In this document: positions 23,795 to 50,274 of the stretch, in pieces
Layout of the letters: every line of letters starts with the position of its first letter
Numbering within the stretch: the first letter of the stretch is position 1
Source of the DNA: Dielma fastidiosa
Lineage (GTDB): Bacteria > Bacillota_I > Bacilli_A > Erysipelotrichales > Erysipelotrichaceae
Reading direction: 5' to 3'
Length of the DNA: 64,000 nt
Assembly (NCBI RefSeq): GCF_000313565.1
Contig: NZ_HE578928.1
Location: forward strand, 1 to 64,000
Notes under the pieces: model-generated
What the model saw: only the letters and a program-made list of their open reading frames with translations
Databases searched by the model: none
What the model was told of the DNA's origin: nothing
Made by a program: the position numbers and the translations under genes

Positions 23795-23930
23795 TTTATC
23801 TATCACAATATATCCGCATAATAAAATGCTCACACCGAAAGACAGCATGAGCATGAAAGAGTAATGTTTCTTTCTACCTCGGCAACGTGATTAAGCCATA
23901 GGCCGTTGCTGTCTGTGGTATATATTGATA
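23795..23930 (-). ncRNA. L10 leader (autoregulatory ribosomal protein leader)
   Basis: The 5'UTR of rplJ has the hallmark parts of the bacterial L10 leader: 'CAGACAGCAACGG...TTAATCACGTTGCCGAGG' (a kink-turn next to a GC stem), followed by a strong hairpin (ATGCTCATGCTGTCTTTC paired with GAAAGACAGCATGAGCAT-like bases) near 23828-23860. It should bind the L10-L12 complex and lower transcription or translation. Boundaries are approximate. Confidence 0.75.
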
Positions 23931-23938
23931 ACAGTCTT

Positions 23939-30139: not shown

Positions 30140-30372
30140 CTCCTTTAACAAATAAAAAAGCGCCCCTGTATAGAGACGCTTCAACACGCGGTTCCACTCT
30201 AATTGAAATAAATTCCACTCTGACCGTTAACGCCGGCAACGTTTCCTTCTACATATCGAAAGAACCCTAAGAGGTGCATTCAGCAAGTCGCTCATTCAGC
30301 GTTTCCACCCTTCCGCTGTCTCTGTAAATCAGCTCTACTGCTTACTATTCCCCTATTACTGGTTTGTTTAAT
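30140..30372 (-). promoter_or_regulatory. T-box riboswitch (Cys specifier)
   Basis: The leader of cysS shows the T-box sequence (AGAGTGGAACCGCG, near 30180-30195), a terminator hairpin just downstream (GCGTCTCTATACAGGGGCGC, then TTTTTT, near 30147-30175), and a stem I region with a specifier TGC (complement of 30276-30278) in 'GAATGCACC', i.e. cysteine followed by a purine. Uncharged tRNA-Cys should stabilise the antiterminator and turn on cysS-mrnC-rlmB. Confidence 0.9.
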
Positions 30373-42192: not shown

Positions 42193-43134
42193 TCAATCCT
42201 TTTTTAAATATTTACTTAACAGATCCCTGATCTTATCCGGATCATGACGAATCAGTTTACCATTAAAATTCAATAATTCTTCTTCAATCACATCATAATC
42301 ATGTTCATTTTCACGGATAATTACCGGGGTTGAACCTTCAAGATTATAACGTGACAGCACTTCCTCACTGATATCATCCTCATAGGCAAATACAGTTTGA
42401 ATGATTCCCTTGTAGGAATGCGCTTCAATCGCCTCTACATGATCCTCCAGTGAATAATTATCGGTTTCGCCGGGCTGGGTCATCGCGTTACAGAAATAAA
42501 CGCAGTTCGCTTTTGACTGCCTGATTGCATCCGTAATGCCTTCGATAATCAAATTAGGAATGACGCTGGTATATAAAGAACCAATTCCGATAACGATCAG
42601 ATCCGCATTAGCCAATGCCTCAATCGCCTGCGGTGTCGCCGTAACTTCTTCTTCATAGTAAACCTTTTGAATGCGGTTGTCGAAATTAGGGATGTTGCTT
42701 TCACCGCGGACAATCGTTCCGTCGATCATCTTAGCAAACAGCGTGATGACCTGAGTAGTTGCCGGTATGATATCACCCTTAACATTTAAAACTTTAGAAA
42801 TAGTCGCAATCGCATCCATGAAATTGCCGCTTTCCTCACTCAGCGCGGTTAAAATCAGATTTCCCAGATTGTGGCCGCCGATATCATGATCCTCACCATC
42901 AAAGCGGTAGTTCATCAAGTGTGAAAATAAGGTTTCTTCTTCTGCCAGCGCGACCATGACGTTGCGGATATCACCCATTGCCGGAATATGAAACTGGCGC
43001 CGCAGCCGGCCAGTGCTGCCGCCGTCATCAGCAACCGTTACAATTGCCGAAATATGCACATCCTCAATTTGCTTTAAGCCTCTTAAAATCACCGATAAGC
43101 CAGTACCGCCGCCAATTACGGTTATATTTTTCAT
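42193..43134 (-). CDS. yvcK: gluconeogenesis factor YvcK (CofD-like)
   Basis: 313 aa. 'ITVIGGGTGLSVILRGLKQ' at the start and 'IGNLIL...NLIVIGIGSLYTSVIPNLIIEGI' mark the CofD/YvcK (UPF0052) fold. YvcK binds UDP-GlcNAc and supports growth on gluconeogenic carbon sources and wall shape in Bacillus. Its ATG overlaps the rapZ stop (ATGA, 4 nt), so synthesis is coupled. Order rapZ-yvcK-whiA is the standard one. Confidence 0.96.
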   Translation of the reverse strand: MKNITVIGGGTGLSVILRGLKQIEDVHISAIVTVADDGGSTGRLRRQFHIPAMGDIRNVMVALAEEETLFSHLMNYRFDGEDHDIGGHNLGNLILTALSEESGNFMDAIATISKVLNVKGDIIPATTQVITLFAKMIDGTIVRGESNIPNFDNRIQKVYYEEEVTATPQAIEALANADLIVIGIGSLYTSVIPNLIIEGITDAIRQSKANCVYFCNAMTQPGETDNYSLEDHVEAIEAHSYKGIIQTVFAYEDDISEEVLSRYNLEGSTPVIIRENEHDYDVIEEELLNFNGKLIRHDPDKIRDLLSKYLKKD

Positions 43135-43994
43135 CGGTGTTTCCCCGCTTTATCACGATGCGACTTATAGCATGTATATTCCTTTGAGTAATGTTCATAA
43201 AGCCAATTGGTGATGGATACTGAACGATGCTGACCGCCGGTGCAGCCAATGCTGACCGTTAAATGATTCTTGCCTTCTTTTTGATACTGAACAAACGCAT
43301 AATCAAGAAATGACTGTAAATGCTTCAGACAATCCTGTGTCTCATCAAAGCTCATTACATAATCATAAACCGGGGCATCATCCCCCGTTAGCGTTTTTAA
43401 TTCATCGATATAATAGGGATTTGGTAAAAAGCGCACATCAAACAGCAGATCGCTGTCCATCGGAATCCCATGCTTATAACCAAAGGATACAAAGGAGATG
43501 GAAAAGACCGGCTTCTCGCCAAGCTTGAGCTGTTCCTCAATCTTATCCTTTAATTCATGCTGAGACAGCTTCGTTGTGTCGATATGAAGTATCGCACCGC
43601 GTTCCTGAAGGCCGTTAAAAAGCTCACGTTCCGCTTCGATCGCATCCTCAAGGGTATTCGCCATTTTAAAAATTAAAAATGGGTGGTGGCGTCTTGTGAA
43701 TTTATAGCGCTGAAGCAGCTTTTCATTGCTGGCATCTAAGAAAACAACGCGTACATTGACATTGATATTTTCAAAATAAGTCAGAAAGGTTGGATAATCC
43801 AGAGCTGATGTTGCCAAAGCGATATTCTGATACCGCGGATCTGGATCATTTTTGATAATTTTACCAAGGGAACTGACAAGCTGTACCGGAAATTGATCAA
43901 TGCAGTGATAGCCCATATCTTCAAGAATCGACATGGCAGTTGACTTACCGGCACCGGACATACCAGTGACTAGGACAATATTCTGTTCACTCAT
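43131..43994 (-). CDS. rapZ: RNase adapter protein RapZ (YvcJ)
   Basis: The start is the ATG at 43994 (MSEQNIVLV), 6 nt after GAGGTG. N-terminal P-loop 'GMSGAGKSTA' (residues about 10-19) and the C-terminal 'SFVSFGYKHGIPMDSDLLFDVRFLPNP' and 'VSIGCTGGQHRSVSI' signatures identify RapZ/YvcJ. In E. coli it guides RNase E in control of glucosamine-6-phosphate synthesis; in Bacillus it has nucleotide-binding activity and affects competence. It is preceded by a terminator, so it probably starts its own unit with yvcK and whiA. Confidence 0.96.
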   Translation of the reverse strand: MSEQNIVLVTGMSGAGKSTAMSILEDMGYHCIDQFPVQLVSSLGKIIKNDPDPRYQNIALATSALDYPTFLTYFENINVNVRVVFLDASNEKLLQRYKFTRRHHPFLIFKMANTLEDAIEAERELFNGLQERGAILHIDTTKLSQHELKDKIEEQLKLGEKPVFSISFVSFGYKHGIPMDSDLLFDVRFLPNPYYIDELKTLTGDDAPVYDYVMSFDETQDCLKHLQSFLDYAFVQYQKEGKNHLTVSIGCTGGQHRSVSITNWLYEHYSKEYTCYKSHRDKAGKHR

Positions 43995-44099
43995 ACTGTT
44001 CACCTCTTCTTTTATTTAGTTTACCATATTCTTTATTTTATGCACAGAAAAAGTTAGACAGAAGCTTCCGGCACAGATAATGGTAATTATTTATATGAC

Positions 44100-44131: not shown

Positions 44132-45046
44132 TTAATCTCTTAATAAATGAAAAATATTCTGAGCCGCGATAGCACCATCGCTGGCCGCTGTGATTACCTG
44201 ACGGATTTGTTTGCGTCTCACATCACCTGCCGCAAAGATGCCGGGCAGTGAAGTTTCCATTCGCTCATCGGTCAATACATAACCCGCCTCATCAAGAATC
44301 GGCAGTTCACGGCAGTAATCCGTCATTGGGTCCAAACCGATGTATGGGAAAATGCCGCTGGTTTCCAATACTTCTTCACTATCGTCTGCCAGCTTTTTAA
44401 CTTTAATACCGCAGACCTTGGCGCCATCATCAAGTATTTCCACAGGTATATAACCCATCTTGATATGTATTTTTTCATTCTTTTCTGCTTTTTCAATCAG
44501 CATCGCGTCAGCTCTGAGCTTTGAGCGCACAAGAACATTGATGCATGATGCAAACTGGCTCAGATAAAGACTTTCTTCAATGGCTGAATTACCGCCGCCG
44601 ACAATCGTAACAATCTTGTCTTTATAAAAGGCACCGTCACAGATCGCGCAGAAAGATACGCCATGACCGATATTCTTTTCTTCACCGGGGATATTCAGCT
44701 TGCGCTCAACCGTACCGCTGGCCAGCAGCAGTGTTCGGCCATGCAGTGTCGTGCCATCAGAACAAGTAACCGTTTTTGTTTCACCGTCACTGACTTTTAC
44801 TACATTGCTGCTGATCAATTCAGCTCCGAGATTCATTGCATGATTCATCATATCCATGGCCAAGGTCGTACCTTCTGCCGATTCAAGACCTGGATAATTC
44901 TCAATAATTGATGTTCTTACCAGCTTGCCGCCAGGTGCATAATTTTCAATTAATACAACCTCTAAGCCGGCTCTTGCCGCATAGATAGCCGCGCTTAAGC
45001 CAGCCGGGCCGCTGCCGATAATTATAGTGTCGTAAAGTCGCTCCAT
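44132..45046 (-). CDS. trxB: thioredoxin reductase
   Basis: The start is the ATG at 45046 (MERLYDTI), 7 nt after AGGAGG, lying inside the last codons of the lgt-ppaX gene. 304 aa with FAD motif '[17 protein letters not shown]' (11-27), redox pair Cys133/Cys136 ('FCAICDGAF') and NADPH motif '[10 protein letters not shown]'. It keeps thioredoxin reduced. The overlap with the preceding gene suggests coupled translation. Terminated at 44100-44125. Confidence 0.96.
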
Positions 45047-46494
45047 TCGTGATCCTCCTTTAGGATATCTAATAACTGAGGCATTGATGTAATTAGAACG
45101 CATGGCTTAGCCGCCTGTAATTCTTCACGGCGTGTCTTGTCAAAAGAGGCTGCCACGGAGAAGGCTGACATATTCTTACAGGTTTTGATATCACCCACTG
45201 AATCACCGACATAAACAACATTGTCAATGGAGCGGTATAATTCAGCACATGCTTTGATTAAACCTTCCGGATCAGGTTTTACCTTATTCAGCTGTTCACA
45301 GCCGACAATTACCGGAAAATAATCCTTTAAGCCGCAGTATTCCAGACCGTGAGTCACTGTCTGTACTGTTTTATTGGAAACTACACCAATATCATAATCC
45401 TCTTCTTTTAACGTTCTCAATACTTCTTCCACACCATAAAAAGGCTTTACATACTCATCATGATGGGCGAGATTGAATTTGCGGTATTCCGCGATCAATT
45501 CGTCACTGTTTACTTCAGGTATATATTTCTCAAAGCTTTCCTTCAGCGTCGGCCCTAAAAAGCCTTTGAGATCTGCAGTTGTTAATACATAATCAGGACG
45601 GTAAATCGCAAATACATGACGGAAGCTGTCAGCAATCAAAGCCTCTGTATCTAATAGTGTACCATCAAGATCAAATAACACAACTGGTTTGACCTTCTTA
45701 AACGGCCAGATATTCGCGAATAGCTTATCATATACACCAAGCAGACCTAATACGCCTAAAATAATACCGCAGATTGAAATCAGCTGGGCAACCCGAATTG
45801 GTCCCATCATCAATGAATCAGTACGCAGACCTTCCACGAAGAAACGTACTACACCATACCAGACAATGTAAGCATAAGCCATGTCACCGCGTTTTTTACG
45901 GCCATATTTCTTAAAGCCAAAATAGATCAGAATAAAACCAATCAGATTGCCGACACCCTCAAATAGATAGGTTGGCATCCGATAAGCACCATCGATAAAC
46001 ATGCCCTCTTTGATAAAGGCCGGAAAATGATTAAAGAAAGATTCTGAAACCACACCGCCAAAGGCCTCCTGATTCACAAAATTACCCCAGCGTCCGATGG
46101 CTTGCCCAATCAGCAGATTCGGCGCGCAGGCATCCGCAAACCGCCTCGCGTCAACATTTCTTTTCTTCAGGAAGAACCAGCCGAAAATAACAGCTGCGAT
46201 AACACCGCCATGGAATGCCAGACCGCCCTCCCATACATAAAAGATAGAAATCGGATCGGCAATGTACTGCTTCCATTCAAACAGGCAGTACCAAATACGC
46301 GCGCCGATATAAGCAATCGGCAGCATCATGATGAAATAATCTTCGCCAAGACTTTCTTTATAACCCATTTTTTTCAAGGTACGCTGACTCAGATAATAAG
46401 TAACCAGCGCACCGGTAAGACTAAAGATTGCATACCAAGTGATATGCAGTGAACCAAAAGACAGAAAAATCTTTGAAGTTGGAAAAAACTGCAT
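45022..46494 (-). CDS. lgt: Lgt-PpaX fusion: prolipoprotein diacylglyceryl transferase with C-terminal HAD pyrophosphatase-like domain (490 aa)
   Basis: Residues 1-265 are a full Lgt, with seven membrane helices and the motifs '[10 protein letters not shown]' (88-97) and '[14 protein letters not shown]' (134-147). A short linker (about 263-270) leads to a complete HAD phosphatase: DxDGT nucleophile motif ([11 protein letters not shown], Asp275), cap region, 'VVSNKT' motif II, 'KPDPE' motif III and 'GDSVGD' motif IV (430-435). '[12 protein letters not shown]' (337-348) is near the PpaX signature. In Bacillus ppaX is a separate gene near hprK and lgt; here they form one chain. The HAD part would face the cytoplasm. 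No frameshift is needed. Confidence 0.93.
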
Positions 46495-46509: not shown

Positions 46510-47448
46510 CTAATTATTTTTAGCGATAAAGTCCAGCACCCGCTGTTCAAACTCCTTCGCTGAATCCATTCCCATTTCTGATAAGGTGAAATTTGTGACC
46601 GCGGATTCAATAATAACCGCCATTGAACGGCCTTCCTTAACCGGCAGTATAATTTTTGGTATATCCACACCAAGAATCGTTTCAAATTTCTTATCCTCAA
46701 TACCCACACGATCATAATCATTATCCGGATGCCATTGCTCCAGCTGTACCACTAAGGATACTTCTACCTTATCCAGTACCGAGCTGGCCCCGAACATTCT
46801 TGAAACATTGATAATACCGATACCGCGGATTTCCAGCATCTCACGCAAAATCGTCGGCGCCCGGCCAACAATCTTATTATGAATGCGGGAACAATCCACC
46901 CGGTCATCAGCAACCAGTAAATGACCGCGCTTAATTAATTCGAGCGCGATTTCACTCTTGCCCATGCCGCTTTCACCGCTGATCATGACGCCCTTGCCAT
47001 AGATTGACAATAAACCGCCGTGACGGCTTGCGGTAGGCGCTAATTTCTCATCAAGAAAAGTTACGACATCAATAATTAACCGATAGGTTTCTGACATTGA
47101 ACGCAAAAGCGGAAAATCCTTTTCTTTCGCGATTTCCTTAAGAATCGGCGGACACATATGGCTCTTCGAAATAATAATCGCCGGTGTCACCTCATTAGTG
47201 ATGAAATCAAAGCTGATTCGCTGAGAACGTTCATCCATCGTTTCAATATAGGCAATTTCTTTATCACCGAGAATCACGACCCGTTTAGACTGTGAAAAAT
47301 CAAAGAAGCCAGCCAGCTCAAGGCCCGGACGATTCGTGTCCGCAATTACGATTGGTCTTTCTAATGACTGTTCGCTGCCTTCAATGATTTCAAAATCAAA
47401 ATAATTAACCAGATCCTTTACTTTAAGATTCGCTTCTACATTTTCCAT
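46510..47448 (-). CDS. hprK: HPr kinase/phosphorylase
   Basis: 312 aa. P-loop 'SGESGMGKSEIALELI' (157-172), catalytic His143 ('RHGG') and the C-terminal 'KxVEVSLVVQLEQW' and 'LPVKEGRSMAVIIE' (K3 loop) signatures are in place. It phosphorylates HPr at Ser46 and reverses this by phosphorolysis, which produces pyrophosphate. P-Ser-HPr activates CcpA. The next gene fuses lgt to a PpaX-like pyrophosphatase, which would remove that product. It follows uvrA without a gap. The PTS and cre sites in this window are its expected outputs. Confidence 0.96.
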   Translation of the reverse strand: MENVEANLKVKDLVNYFDFEIIEGSEQSLERPIVIADTNRPGLELAGFFDFSQSKRVVILGDKEIAYIETMDERSQRISFDFITNEVTPAIIISKSHMCPPILKEIAKEKDFPLLRSMSETYRLIIDVVTFLDEKLAPTASRHGGLLSIYGKGVMISGESGMGKSEIALELIKRGHLLVADDRVDCSRIHNKIVGRAPTILREMLEIRGIGIINVSRMFGASSVLDKVEVSLVVQLEQWHPDNDYDRVGIEDKKFETILGVDIPKIILPVKEGRSMAVIIESAVTNFTLSEMGMDSAKEFEQRVLDFIAKNN

Positions 47449-50274
47449 TTATCGTTTACCCTCCAGCACGCGTTTCAGATAGATACCTGTATAGCTGTGC
47501 TCACAAGCCGCAACCTGTTCAGGTGTACCGCTAACCATAATCTGACCGCCTTCATCGCCGCCTTCCGGTCCAATATCAATAATCCAGTCAGCGCATTTAA
47601 TGATATCGAGATTATGCTCAATAACCAACACGGTATCGCCATTATCCACAATACGCTGTAAAACCTCAAGCAGCTTCGCGACATCGCTTGTATGCAGACC
47701 GGTTGTCGGTTCATCTAAAACAAACAGCGTCTTGCCGGTTGCCTTGCGCTGCAGCTCACTGGCTAATTTAACACGCTGTGCCTCACCGCCGGAAAGCGTG
47801 GTCGCGCTTTGTCCTAATTTCACATAGCCAAGCCCCACATCCTTCAGCGTCTGCAAGCGATGACGAATCTTATGTACGTTATGGAAGAAATCAATCGCCT
47901 CCTCCACACTCATTTCTAAAACATCATAGATGCTCTTGCCCTTATAGGTGCAAGCCAATGTTTCTTCATTATAACGGCGTCCCTCACACTGATCACAAGG
48001 CACGTAGACATCCGGTAAGAAATGCATTGAAATACGCAGAATGCCATCACCCTGACACGCTTCACAGCGGCCGCCCTTTACGTTAAAGGAGAAACGTCCC
48101 TTGTCAAAGCCGCGGATTTTAGCTTCGGCAGTCTGTGCGAATAAATCACGGATATCATCAAAAACACCTGTATAGGTAGCTGGATTTGACCGCGGTGTAC
48201 GGCCGATTGGGTCCTGTGAAATATCAATGATCTTATCAATATGCTGGAGACCTTTAATTTTCTTACATTTCCCCGGCAGCACCTTCATACGTCCTAAGGA
48301 ATGCTGAATTCCTTTAGATAATACTTCATTAACCAATGAGCTCTTACCGCTGCCTGAAACACCGGTTACCACAATCAATTTACCCAACGGAAATTTAACT
48401 GTCACGTCTTTTAAATTATTTTCACAAGCGCCGACAACTTCAAGGCATAAACCATTGCCCTTTTTTCGCGTTTCAGGAATCGCGATTTGCTTTCTTCCTG
48501 ATAGATAGGCACCCGTAATTGAATCTGGATTTTCCATTACCTCAGCCGGGGTACCAGCAGCAACAACCTCACCGCCGTGAATGCCGGCACCTGGCCCGAT
48601 ATCAATCAGATAATCACTGGCCCGCATTGTATCTTCATCATGCTCGACAACAATCAATGAATTACCTAAATCACGCATCGCTTTTAACGAAGCAATCAGC
48701 CGGTCATTATCACGCTGATGCAGACCGATACTCGGCTCATCGAGCACATACAGCACACCTGATAAATGCGAACCAATCTGGGTAGCCAGACGAATACGCT
48801 GGGCTTCACCGCCGGAAAGCGTACCAGCCAGACGATCCAAGGTCAGATAATCGAGACCTACATCACTCAAAAACTGCAGACGCTCACGGATCTCTTTCAA
48901 AATCAAGCGGGCAATCTCCTGCTGCTGTTTATTCAGCTGCATCTGCCCCAAGAAAACCAATGACTGTTTCACCGACATCTGCGTCCATTCAAAAATATTC
49001 AAGCCGCAGACACGCACTGACAACGCCTGCTCATTCAGACGCTTACCGCCGCAGACAGGACATGGTGCTTCTGATAAGAAAGTCGCATACCATTCACGGC
49101 TCATCTGTGAAGTAGTTTCCATGAAACGGCGCTCAATCAATGTGCAGACACCTTCAATAAATTCAACCTTTCTAAAGCTCGTTCCCGACTTAGATTCCAG
49201 CTGATAATCAATCGGTTCCGTAGAACCAAAACAAATGATATCCATTTCCTTCTTCGTCAGCTTCTCAATCGGTTTATCAATATCAATCTTATAATGATCA
49301 CATAACGCTTTAAATTTCAGCCATTCCAGATTTTCCTTAGCAATAATATTCTTATAATAAACAATACCGCCCTGACGAATCGACTTCTTACGATCCGGAA
49401 TCAAAAAATCAAGATTTACTTTTTGGGTGATACCAAGTCCCTTACATGAAGGACATGCCCCCAAAGGCGCGTTAAATGAGAAAAGCCGCGGTTCAAGTGT
49501 CGGTACACTAAAACCACAGTATTTACAGCTATAATTCTGGGAAAACAATATTTCTTCATCATTATAGGCTACTAATGCCATACCCTTGCCAAGCTTCAGC
49601 GCTGCTTCTAATGAATCCGCGATACGGGCACGGTCACTGCCCTTCACAATACGGTCAACCACGACATCAATCGTATGCTTTTTATTCTTATCAAAGCCTT
49701 CAGTTTCCTCAAGCAGCACCATGTCGCCATTATGACGGATACGCACATAACCCTCTTTCTTTAATTTATCAAGCAGATCCTTGTGTGTTCCCTTCTTATC
49801 TTTTAAAATCGGCGCTAAAATCATTAAACGTGTCTTATCCTCAAGCTCCATGACACGATCCACCATCTGTTTGATTGTCTGGCTTTCAATCGGTTCATTA
49901 TGTGTCGGACAATAAGGCACTCCGATACGAGCATATAAAAGACGCAGATAATCATAGATTTCAGTAACCGTTCCTACGGTTGAACGCGGGTTGTTGCTGG
50001 TTGTTTTCTGATCGATGGAAATCGCCGGTGACAAGCCCTCAATGGAATCAACATCCGGTTTTTCACTATTCCCTAAAAATTGTCGGGCATAGGCGCTTAA
50101 GCTTTCCATATAACGGCGCTGGCCTTCCGCATAAATCGTGTCAAAAGCCAAGGATGTTTTACCGCTTCCGGATACCCCCGTCATAATTACAAATTGATTG
50201 CGGGGGATTTCAATATCTATATTCTTCAGGTTGTTCTCACGAGCACCCTTAATCACTATTTTATCATTCTCCAT
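47449..50274 (-). CDS. uvrA: UvrABC system protein A
   Basis: 941 aa, normal length. Two ABC ATPase modules: Walker A 'GVSGSGKTSLAFDTI' near the start and 'GVSGSGKSSLVNEV' at about 640; two 'LSGGEAQR' signatures; zinc-binding Cys clusters ('CKYCGF...CPSCKGLG', 'CEACQGDG...CDQCEGRRY'). UvrA scans DNA for bulky damage and loads UvrB. The ATG at 50274 has AGGTG upstream. It starts the unit uvrA-hprK-lgt-ppaX-trxB. uvrB is separated from it by one gene. Confidence 0.97.
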   Translation of the reverse strand: MENDKIVIKGARENNLKNIDIEIPRNQFVIMTGVSGSGKTSLAFDTIYAEGQRRYMESLSAYARQFLGNSEKPDVDSIEGLSPAISIDQKTTSNNPRSTVGTVTEIYDYLRLLYARIGVPYCPTHNEPIESQTIKQMVDRVMELEDKTRLMILAPILKDKKGTHKDLLDKLKKEGYVRIRHNGDMVLLEETEGFDKNKKHTIDVVVDRIVKGSDRARIADSLEAALKLGKGMALVAYNDEEILFSQNYSCKYCGFSVPTLEPRLFSFNAPLGACPSCKGLGITQKVNLDFLIPDRKKSIRQGGIVYYKNIIAKENLEWLKFKALCDHYKIDIDKPIEKLTKKEMDIICFGSTEPIDYQLESKSGTSFRKVEFIEGVCTLIERRFMETTSQMSREWYATFLSEAPCPVCGGKRLNEQALSVRVCGLNIFEWTQMSVKQSLVFLGQMQLNKQQQEIARLILKEIRERLQFLSDVGLDYLTLDRLAGTLSGGEAQRIRLATQIGSHLSGVLYVLDEPSIGLHQRDNDRLIASLKAMRDLGNSLIVVEHDEDTMRASDYLIDIGPGAGIHGGEVVAAGTPAEVMENPDSITGAYLSGRKQIAIPETRKKGNGLCLEVVGACENNLKDVTVKFPLGKLIVVTGVSGSGKSSLVNEVLSKGIQHSLGRMKVLPGKCKKIKGLQHIDKIIDISQDPIGRTPRSNPATYTGVFDDIRDLFAQTAEAKIRGFDKGRFSFNVKGGRCEACQGDGILRISMHFLPDVYVPCDQCEGRRYNEETLACTYKGKSIYDVLEMSVEEAIDFFHNVHKIRHRLQTLKDVGLGYVKLGQSATTLSGGEAQRVKLASELQRKATGKTLFVLDEPTTGLHTSDVAKLLEVLQRIVDNGDTVLVIEHNLDIIKCADWIIDIGPEGGDEGGQIMVSGTPEQVAACEHSYTGIYLKRVLEGKR

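Follow-up and report, generated by a model that had tools for sequence, protein, structure and literature searches.

The window, by which we mean the whole 64,000-nucleotide stretch of Dielma fastidiosa DNA analyzed, contains one gene that encodes both an Lgt domain and a PpaX-like domain of the HAD class. Two neighbors in a conserved Bacilli gene cluster (uvrA-hprK-lgt-ppaX-trxB) have probably fused here into a bifunctional membrane protein whose activities are independent of each other, with pyrophosphate as the likely substrate of the HAD half. The adjacent lgt and ppaX genes have merged into a single frame. According to this explanation, the N-terminal Lgt would move diacylglycerol from phosphatidylglycerol onto lipoproteins at the outer face of the membrane. 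A short linker after the seventh membrane helix would suspend the C-terminal HAD in the cytosol, where it would hydrolyze pyrophosphate, including the share freed as HprK removes the phosphate from P-Ser-HPr. Each activity would ride on the shared gene independently of the other. The locus illustrates clearly how two genes of an operon can become one bifunctional membrane protein that most of a family of gut bacteria has retained, and its chief interest lies in the natural separation experiments and in the form found in genus g31. The features of the locus are as follows.

43131-44003, minus strand: rapZ (NF003828, 304 bits), downstream of the fusion
44132-45046, minus strand: thioredoxin-reductase-like gene in the trxB position (TIGR01292, 330 bits, just under the cut-off of 343)
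45022-46494, minus strand: Lgt-HAD (PpaX-like) fusion gene, an ORF of 490 codons plus stop with an ATG start and no internal stop (Pfam and NCBIfam matches; AF2 model)
45052-45684, minus strand: PpaX-like HAD domain, residues 271-481 (HAD_2, NCBIfam, HAD tree and structural matches)
45685-45741, minus strand: short positively charged linker, residues 252-270 (near-constant spacing from AQxxS to FDxDGT; few in-frame starts with a Shine-Dalgarno sequence)
45742-46470, minus strand: Lgt domain, residues 9-251, with both signature motifs kept (Pfam PF01790, comparison with E. coli Lgt, AF2 helices)
46510-47448, minus strand: hprK, HPr kinase/phosphorylase (TIGR00679, 356.5 bits, cut-off 240), directly upstream of the fusion
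47449-50274, minus strand: uvrA (identified from the ORF reading), upstream of the fusion within the cluster; relatives show the same order

Genes on the minus strand follow the order uvrA, hprK, lgt-HAD, thioredoxin-reductase-like gene, rapZ, yvcK, and whiA; rapZ, hprK, and the reductase gene were named by profile models, and uvrA, yvcK, and whiA by reading ORFs. A preliminary description had reported a 490-codon frame that joins Lgt to a complete HAD domain in the gene right after hprK. The minus-strand ORF matches the reported coordinates 45022-46494 exactly, both domains score above their Pfam cut-offs, and 15 nt separate the hprK stop from the fusion ATG, all of which bears out that report. 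The reductase-like gene has its ATG and a good Shine-Dalgarno sequence within the 3' end of the fusion gene (AAAGGAGGATCACGAATG); given its score below the TRX_reduct cut-off (330 vs 343), it may encode a variant reductase. Elsewhere in the window, the minus strand carries a T-box leader (30169-30368; Rfam RF00230, 100 bits) and a ribosomal protein L10 leader (23813-23936; Rfam RF00557, 67.6 bits).

For the Lgt half, Pfam LGT (PF01790) matches residues 9-251 at 218.3 bits (cut-off 24.9), and NCBIfam lgt (TIGR00544) matches the fusion protein at 193.4 bits (cut-off 118.9). Alignment with E. coli Lgt places Y26, H103, R143, N146, E151, G154, R239, E243, and R246 (E. coli numbering, also below) in the window protein; the functions of the signature residues have been described (PMC4728403). 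Among 75 distinct intact fusions, Y26, G142, R143, G145, N146, E151, G154, R239, E243, and R246 are invariant, and the H103 position is occupied by H, Q, or Y. The AF2 model of the full fusion, built from an input alignment of 15 sequences, has a mean pLDDT of 88 and a pTM of 0.82. It predicts seven membrane helices (residues 20-42, 47-72, 94-111, 116-141, 175-197, 204-223, and 235-251) followed by a complete capped HAD. In a Foldseek search with this model, a HAD was the top match, followed by E. coli Lgt (5azb; E 3.5e-11, TMt 0.71). The E. coli enzyme (PDB 5azb/5azc) shares the seven-helix fold and all signature residues with the Lgt half, but lacks a C-terminal HAD domain and is only 25% identical to the window Lgt. 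The Lgt half is presumably a working diacylglyceryl transferase, and both halves look active from their residues. The predicted arrangement in a single frame also agrees with the earlier suggestion that the fusion places a PpaX-like HAD at the membrane.

In 68 fusions, FDxDGT mostly lies 27 or 33 residues from AQxxS. At the junction, only 5 of 77 fusions combine an in-frame start with an SD-like motif; as a rule, then, the HAD is not made as a separate product, and we rejected general translation from an internal start on these grounds. The window gene is among those five (GTG), and a minor internal HAD start is possible there.

The HAD half (Pfam HAD_2, residues 272-448, 162 bits against a cut-off of 23.8) has PpaX NF009804 as its best HAD model at 185.6 bits. 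Because the curated cut-off of 218 is not reached, the domain is labeled "PpaX-like" rather than PpaX. D275, D277, T279, S373, K406, D431, and D435 are all present in the window protein, together with the cap motif YRKFN..HHD; of these residues, D275, D277, K406, D431, and D435 are invariant in the 75 distinct intact fusions, and the YRxxN..HHD cap pattern is common to the fused HAD and PpaX. In the HAD tree, the HADs of the window's family (f1) form one group (support 96), the fused f1 and sister-family f2 HADs are joined at 88, and Bacilli PpaX, including that of B. mojavensis, comes next (95). The window genome's own HAD paralogues fall outside, at 99. The PpaX hallmarks attributed to this domain earlier thus stand as far as the best model, catalytic residues, cap motif, and tree are concerned, but not at the level of the curated cut-off.

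Sequence alone cannot fix the substrates of HAD enzymes. One alternative is that the HAD half is a general phosphoglycolate or sugar-phosphate phosphatase, tied to hprK by history only. Structural comparison matched HAD phosphatases at Z 23-27 and does not discriminate the substrate, with phosphoglycolate-type HADs of mixed function as the best solved matches. The HAD pyrophosphatase of Bacteroides thetaiotaomicron (PDB 3quq and 3qu7, deposited as pyrophosphatase) shares the HAD fold (Z ~23), but it is a stand-alone protein with 18-20% identity and is structurally no nearer than many other HADs. These matches, the PpaX score below cut-off, and the persistence of the fusion in families f8 and f6, where HprK was not detected, would suit a general phosphatase. 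This alternative is nevertheless rather unlikely given the placement of the HAD with Bacilli PpaX in the tree, the shared cap pattern, and the scores of the best phosphoglycolate phosphatase models (93.5 and 90.7 bits), which are about 90 bits below that of the PpaX model. Within the overall explanation of a fused operon pair, pyrophosphate, including that made by HprK, is most likely what the HAD half hydrolyzes, an assignment that we consider reasonably probable. The window genome also encodes two CBS-type DHH pyrophosphatase-like proteins (L209 and L210), so the cell does not depend on the fused HAD for bulk pyrophosphate removal. These family II pyrophosphatase-like proteins would, like the HAD half, remove pyrophosphate, but they belong to an unrelated family (DHHA2), are unlinked to the locus, and lack a membrane half.

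Mijakovic and colleagues proposed that YvoE (PpaX), encoded in the hprK operon, lowers HprK kinase activity and favors P-Ser-HPr dephosphorylation by removing pyrophosphate (as cited in PMC2937029). The window genome has an HPr with the Ser46 region MKSIMGVMSLGI. Across 326 genomes of the class, 114 have both HprK and PpaX, seven have PpaX only, 70 have HprK only, and 135 have neither (PpaX matches counted at E up to 1e-50; association uncorrected for kinship). Many genomes with HprK therefore have no PpaX. Given how strongly the two co-occur, the HAD half taken by itself may plausibly be linked to HprK through pyrophosphate. A strict link is opposed by fusion-bearing genomes of f8 (G432 and G414) and f6 (G508 and G514), in which HprK was not detected.

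Both halves of the fusion decay INDEPENDENTLY: the Lgt half has been lost in genera g31, g53, g28 with g4, and g5, and the HAD has been lost in genus g37. In g31, g53, g28, and g4, the frame beside hprK retains an intact HAD end, and the membrane half lacks G142, N146, E151, G154, E243, and more (L131, L133, and L148-L152 in g31; L121 in g53; L167 in g28; L153 in g4). The g28 sequence (L167) carries the label "solo" in the HAD tree and is actually a decayed fusion. In g5 (L130 and L132), a solo HAD gene lies between hprK and the reductase gene, and in G059 (L154) the HAD is nearly solo. The HAD catalytic residues are kept in four lineages with a decayed or absent fused Lgt, and the HAD tree nests the decayed and solo lineages in about four places among the intact fusions. 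Conversely, the g37 protein (L166) has an intact Lgt and a HAD remnant of about 105 residues that lacks the catalytic DxD. Pfam LGT still matches three of the four decayed-Lgt fusions tested, and "lgt" matches in these genomes may be catalytically dead, which calls for caution in annotation.

Genomes of all lineages with a decayed or missing fused Lgt half have a second, unlinked Lgt. Its motif reads GRxGCF..GCCYG instead of GRxGNF..GExxG (i.e., N146C and E151C; L155-L160, L163, and L164), and it passes TIGR00544 in both copies tested (128.4 and 126.0 bits). Every one of the 21 genomes in the order sample whose fused Lgt half is decayed or missing has this second Lgt (18 from g31, plus G003, G052, and G059). 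A strong match to it was found in only two of the 76 intact-fusion genomes, both from g57, which keep both copies. The HAD of the decayed lineages stays next to hprK, not next to the new Lgt. Because some lineages have lost Lgt and one has lost the HAD, cooperation between the halves is not required, and these patterns suggest two separate functions that share one gene. Such lineage losses amount to a natural separation test that has already been run. The independent decay and the fusions kept in genomes lacking a detected HprK speak against lipoprotein maturation being obligately coupled to carbon control, and this part of the preliminary description is not sustained.

The stronger reading of the preliminary description is that the fusion serves to bring the pyrophosphatase to the membrane, close to HprK and the sugar PTS, where it would remove pyrophosphate locally and couple carbon control to the membrane. 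The fused gene adjoins hprK in nearly all family genomes read, HprK and PpaX co-occur, and the decayed Lgt half of g31 remains hydrophobic and under purifying selection, all of which fit this proposal. It is nonetheless improbable: the HAD of g5 and G059 has no membrane part, the sister family f2 keeps ppaX as a separate gene that is often distant from hprK, f8 and f6 retain the fusion with no HprK detected, and a purposeless fusion of adjacent genes suffices to explain the arrangement. Any benefit of the fused HAD to HprK is presumptive. The dead-Lgt fusions with intact HAD catalytic residues offer a direct way to test whether control of HprK and P-Ser-HPr is affected by a PpaX-type enzyme being located at the membrane.

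The dead-Lgt fusion of g31 is the most unusual point of the case. Between species, conservation of its membrane half is 38% vs 55% for the HAD; the corresponding values are 53% vs 53% in neighboring intact clades and 62% vs 52% near the window. The NG86 dN/dS ratios for three g31 pairs are about 0.05, 0.15, and 0.16 for the membrane half and about 0.02, 0.04, and 0.10 for the HAD, and these ratios are rough because the larger synonymous distances are near saturation. Such purifying selection suggests that constraint on the dead Lgt half has weakened without disappearing, as would befit an anchor, and its hydrophobic segments are retained. The catalytically dead Lgt half of g31 has apparently been kept as a membrane anchor. 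A point against the preferred explanation is that the g31 HAD has altered cap residues that are conserved in PpaX (N341 to Q, H345 to P/S, and K375 to R). A bolder possibility, which we regard as doubtful, is that the Lgt fold was co-opted as a membrane anchor or sensor for the pyrophosphatase; the g31 form would then act at the membrane as a regulator of HprK or of some other signal based on pyrophosphate or phosphate, with the enzyme role now taken by the divergent unlinked Lgt.

Alternatively, the HAD could act on the Lgt product sn-glycerol-1-phosphate rather than on pyrophosphate, so that the two halves would form one pathway. Lgt does release glycerol-1-phosphate (PMC8048626), small phosphate esters are commonly hydrolyzed by HAD class IA enzymes, and many Bacilli have lgt and ppaX side by side. 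However, the C-terminus of Lgt is cytoplasmic and glycerol-1-phosphate leaves on the periplasmic side (PMC8048626). From this topology we infer a cytosolic HAD, which should reach the products of HprK and not the by-product of Lgt. The HAD also survives the decay of the fused Lgt while staying next to hprK rather than the new Lgt, and the PpaX model outscores the next HAD model by about 90 bits. A shared glycerol-1-phosphate pathway is therefore very unlikely, and pyrophosphate remains the more likely substrate.

A full-length, uninterrupted fusion with 39-60% identity is present in 76 of 105 genomes of the window's family (order sample; counted from the printed matches), which bears on the earlier proposal to check for the fusion across Erysipelotrichia. 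The remaining family genomes are the lineages with a decayed or missing half, G076 (interrupted), G088 (contig end), G038, and three without the locus. Named matches come from Erysipelotrichaceae, Traorella, Solobacterium, and Erysipelothrix, so the preliminary description named the right group, and named loci such as L038-L048 and L061 proved to be one frame when read. An assembly artefact, in which a stop and start between the halves had been lost, had nothing in its favor and is refuted with near certainty by this spread across independent assemblies and by the near-constant linker length. Three family genomes rated 98-100% complete (G016, G054, and G112) gave no HprK and no fusion, perhaps owing to assembly gaps; oddly, G016 has no HAD match at all.

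Beyond the family, the fusion also occurs in families f21, f11, f8, and f6 of the class. Apparent splits in L217, L218, and L222, where a stop had been counted in the match, turned out to be one frame on reading, and the genes are genuinely separate in L228, L229, and L225. Separate adjacent hprK-lgt-ppaX(-trxB) genes are found in f2 (L118 and L124-L126), f13 (L228 and L229), and f7 (L230), and separate adjacent lgt and ppaX also follow hprK in Paenibacillus, Marinilactibacillus, and Thermoflavimicrobium. Because relatives keep lgt and ppaX as separate neighbors, the fusion is best described as a fused operon pair, which had been the more modest alternative of the preliminary description. The Bacillus subtilis-type hprK-lgt-ppaX operon (PpaX = YvoE) shares with the window the three functions and their order, but there lgt and ppaX remain two genes (with about 800 nt between them in B. 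mojavensis, L074), whereas the window has one frame. The concatenated tree requires three changes between the fused and separate states, and placing all fusions in a single clade is rejected (AU p 1e-6). A single ancient fusion followed by two splits and several independent fusions fit equally well, with three changes each.

That ptsK (hprK) is associated with lgt, uvrA, and trxB has already been described (PMC2405797), and both halves and the gene cluster are of known kinds. No paper describing the Lgt-PpaX fusion or its decayed forms was found in the open-access literature, which is weak evidence that these forms are without prior description. At three f8 loci that lack HprK and come from small genomes, the Lgt proteins have a hydrophobic N-terminal extension of 150-170 residues (L223, 563-2563; L224, 1114-3108; L225, 564-1820). 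These extensions have no match to HprK or any other Pfam family, and a triple fusion that includes HprK was rejected. In G076 (L200, contig C16 near 71972-73254), the fusion frame is broken into two frames inside the HAD half, which reflects either a sequencing error or a recent break.
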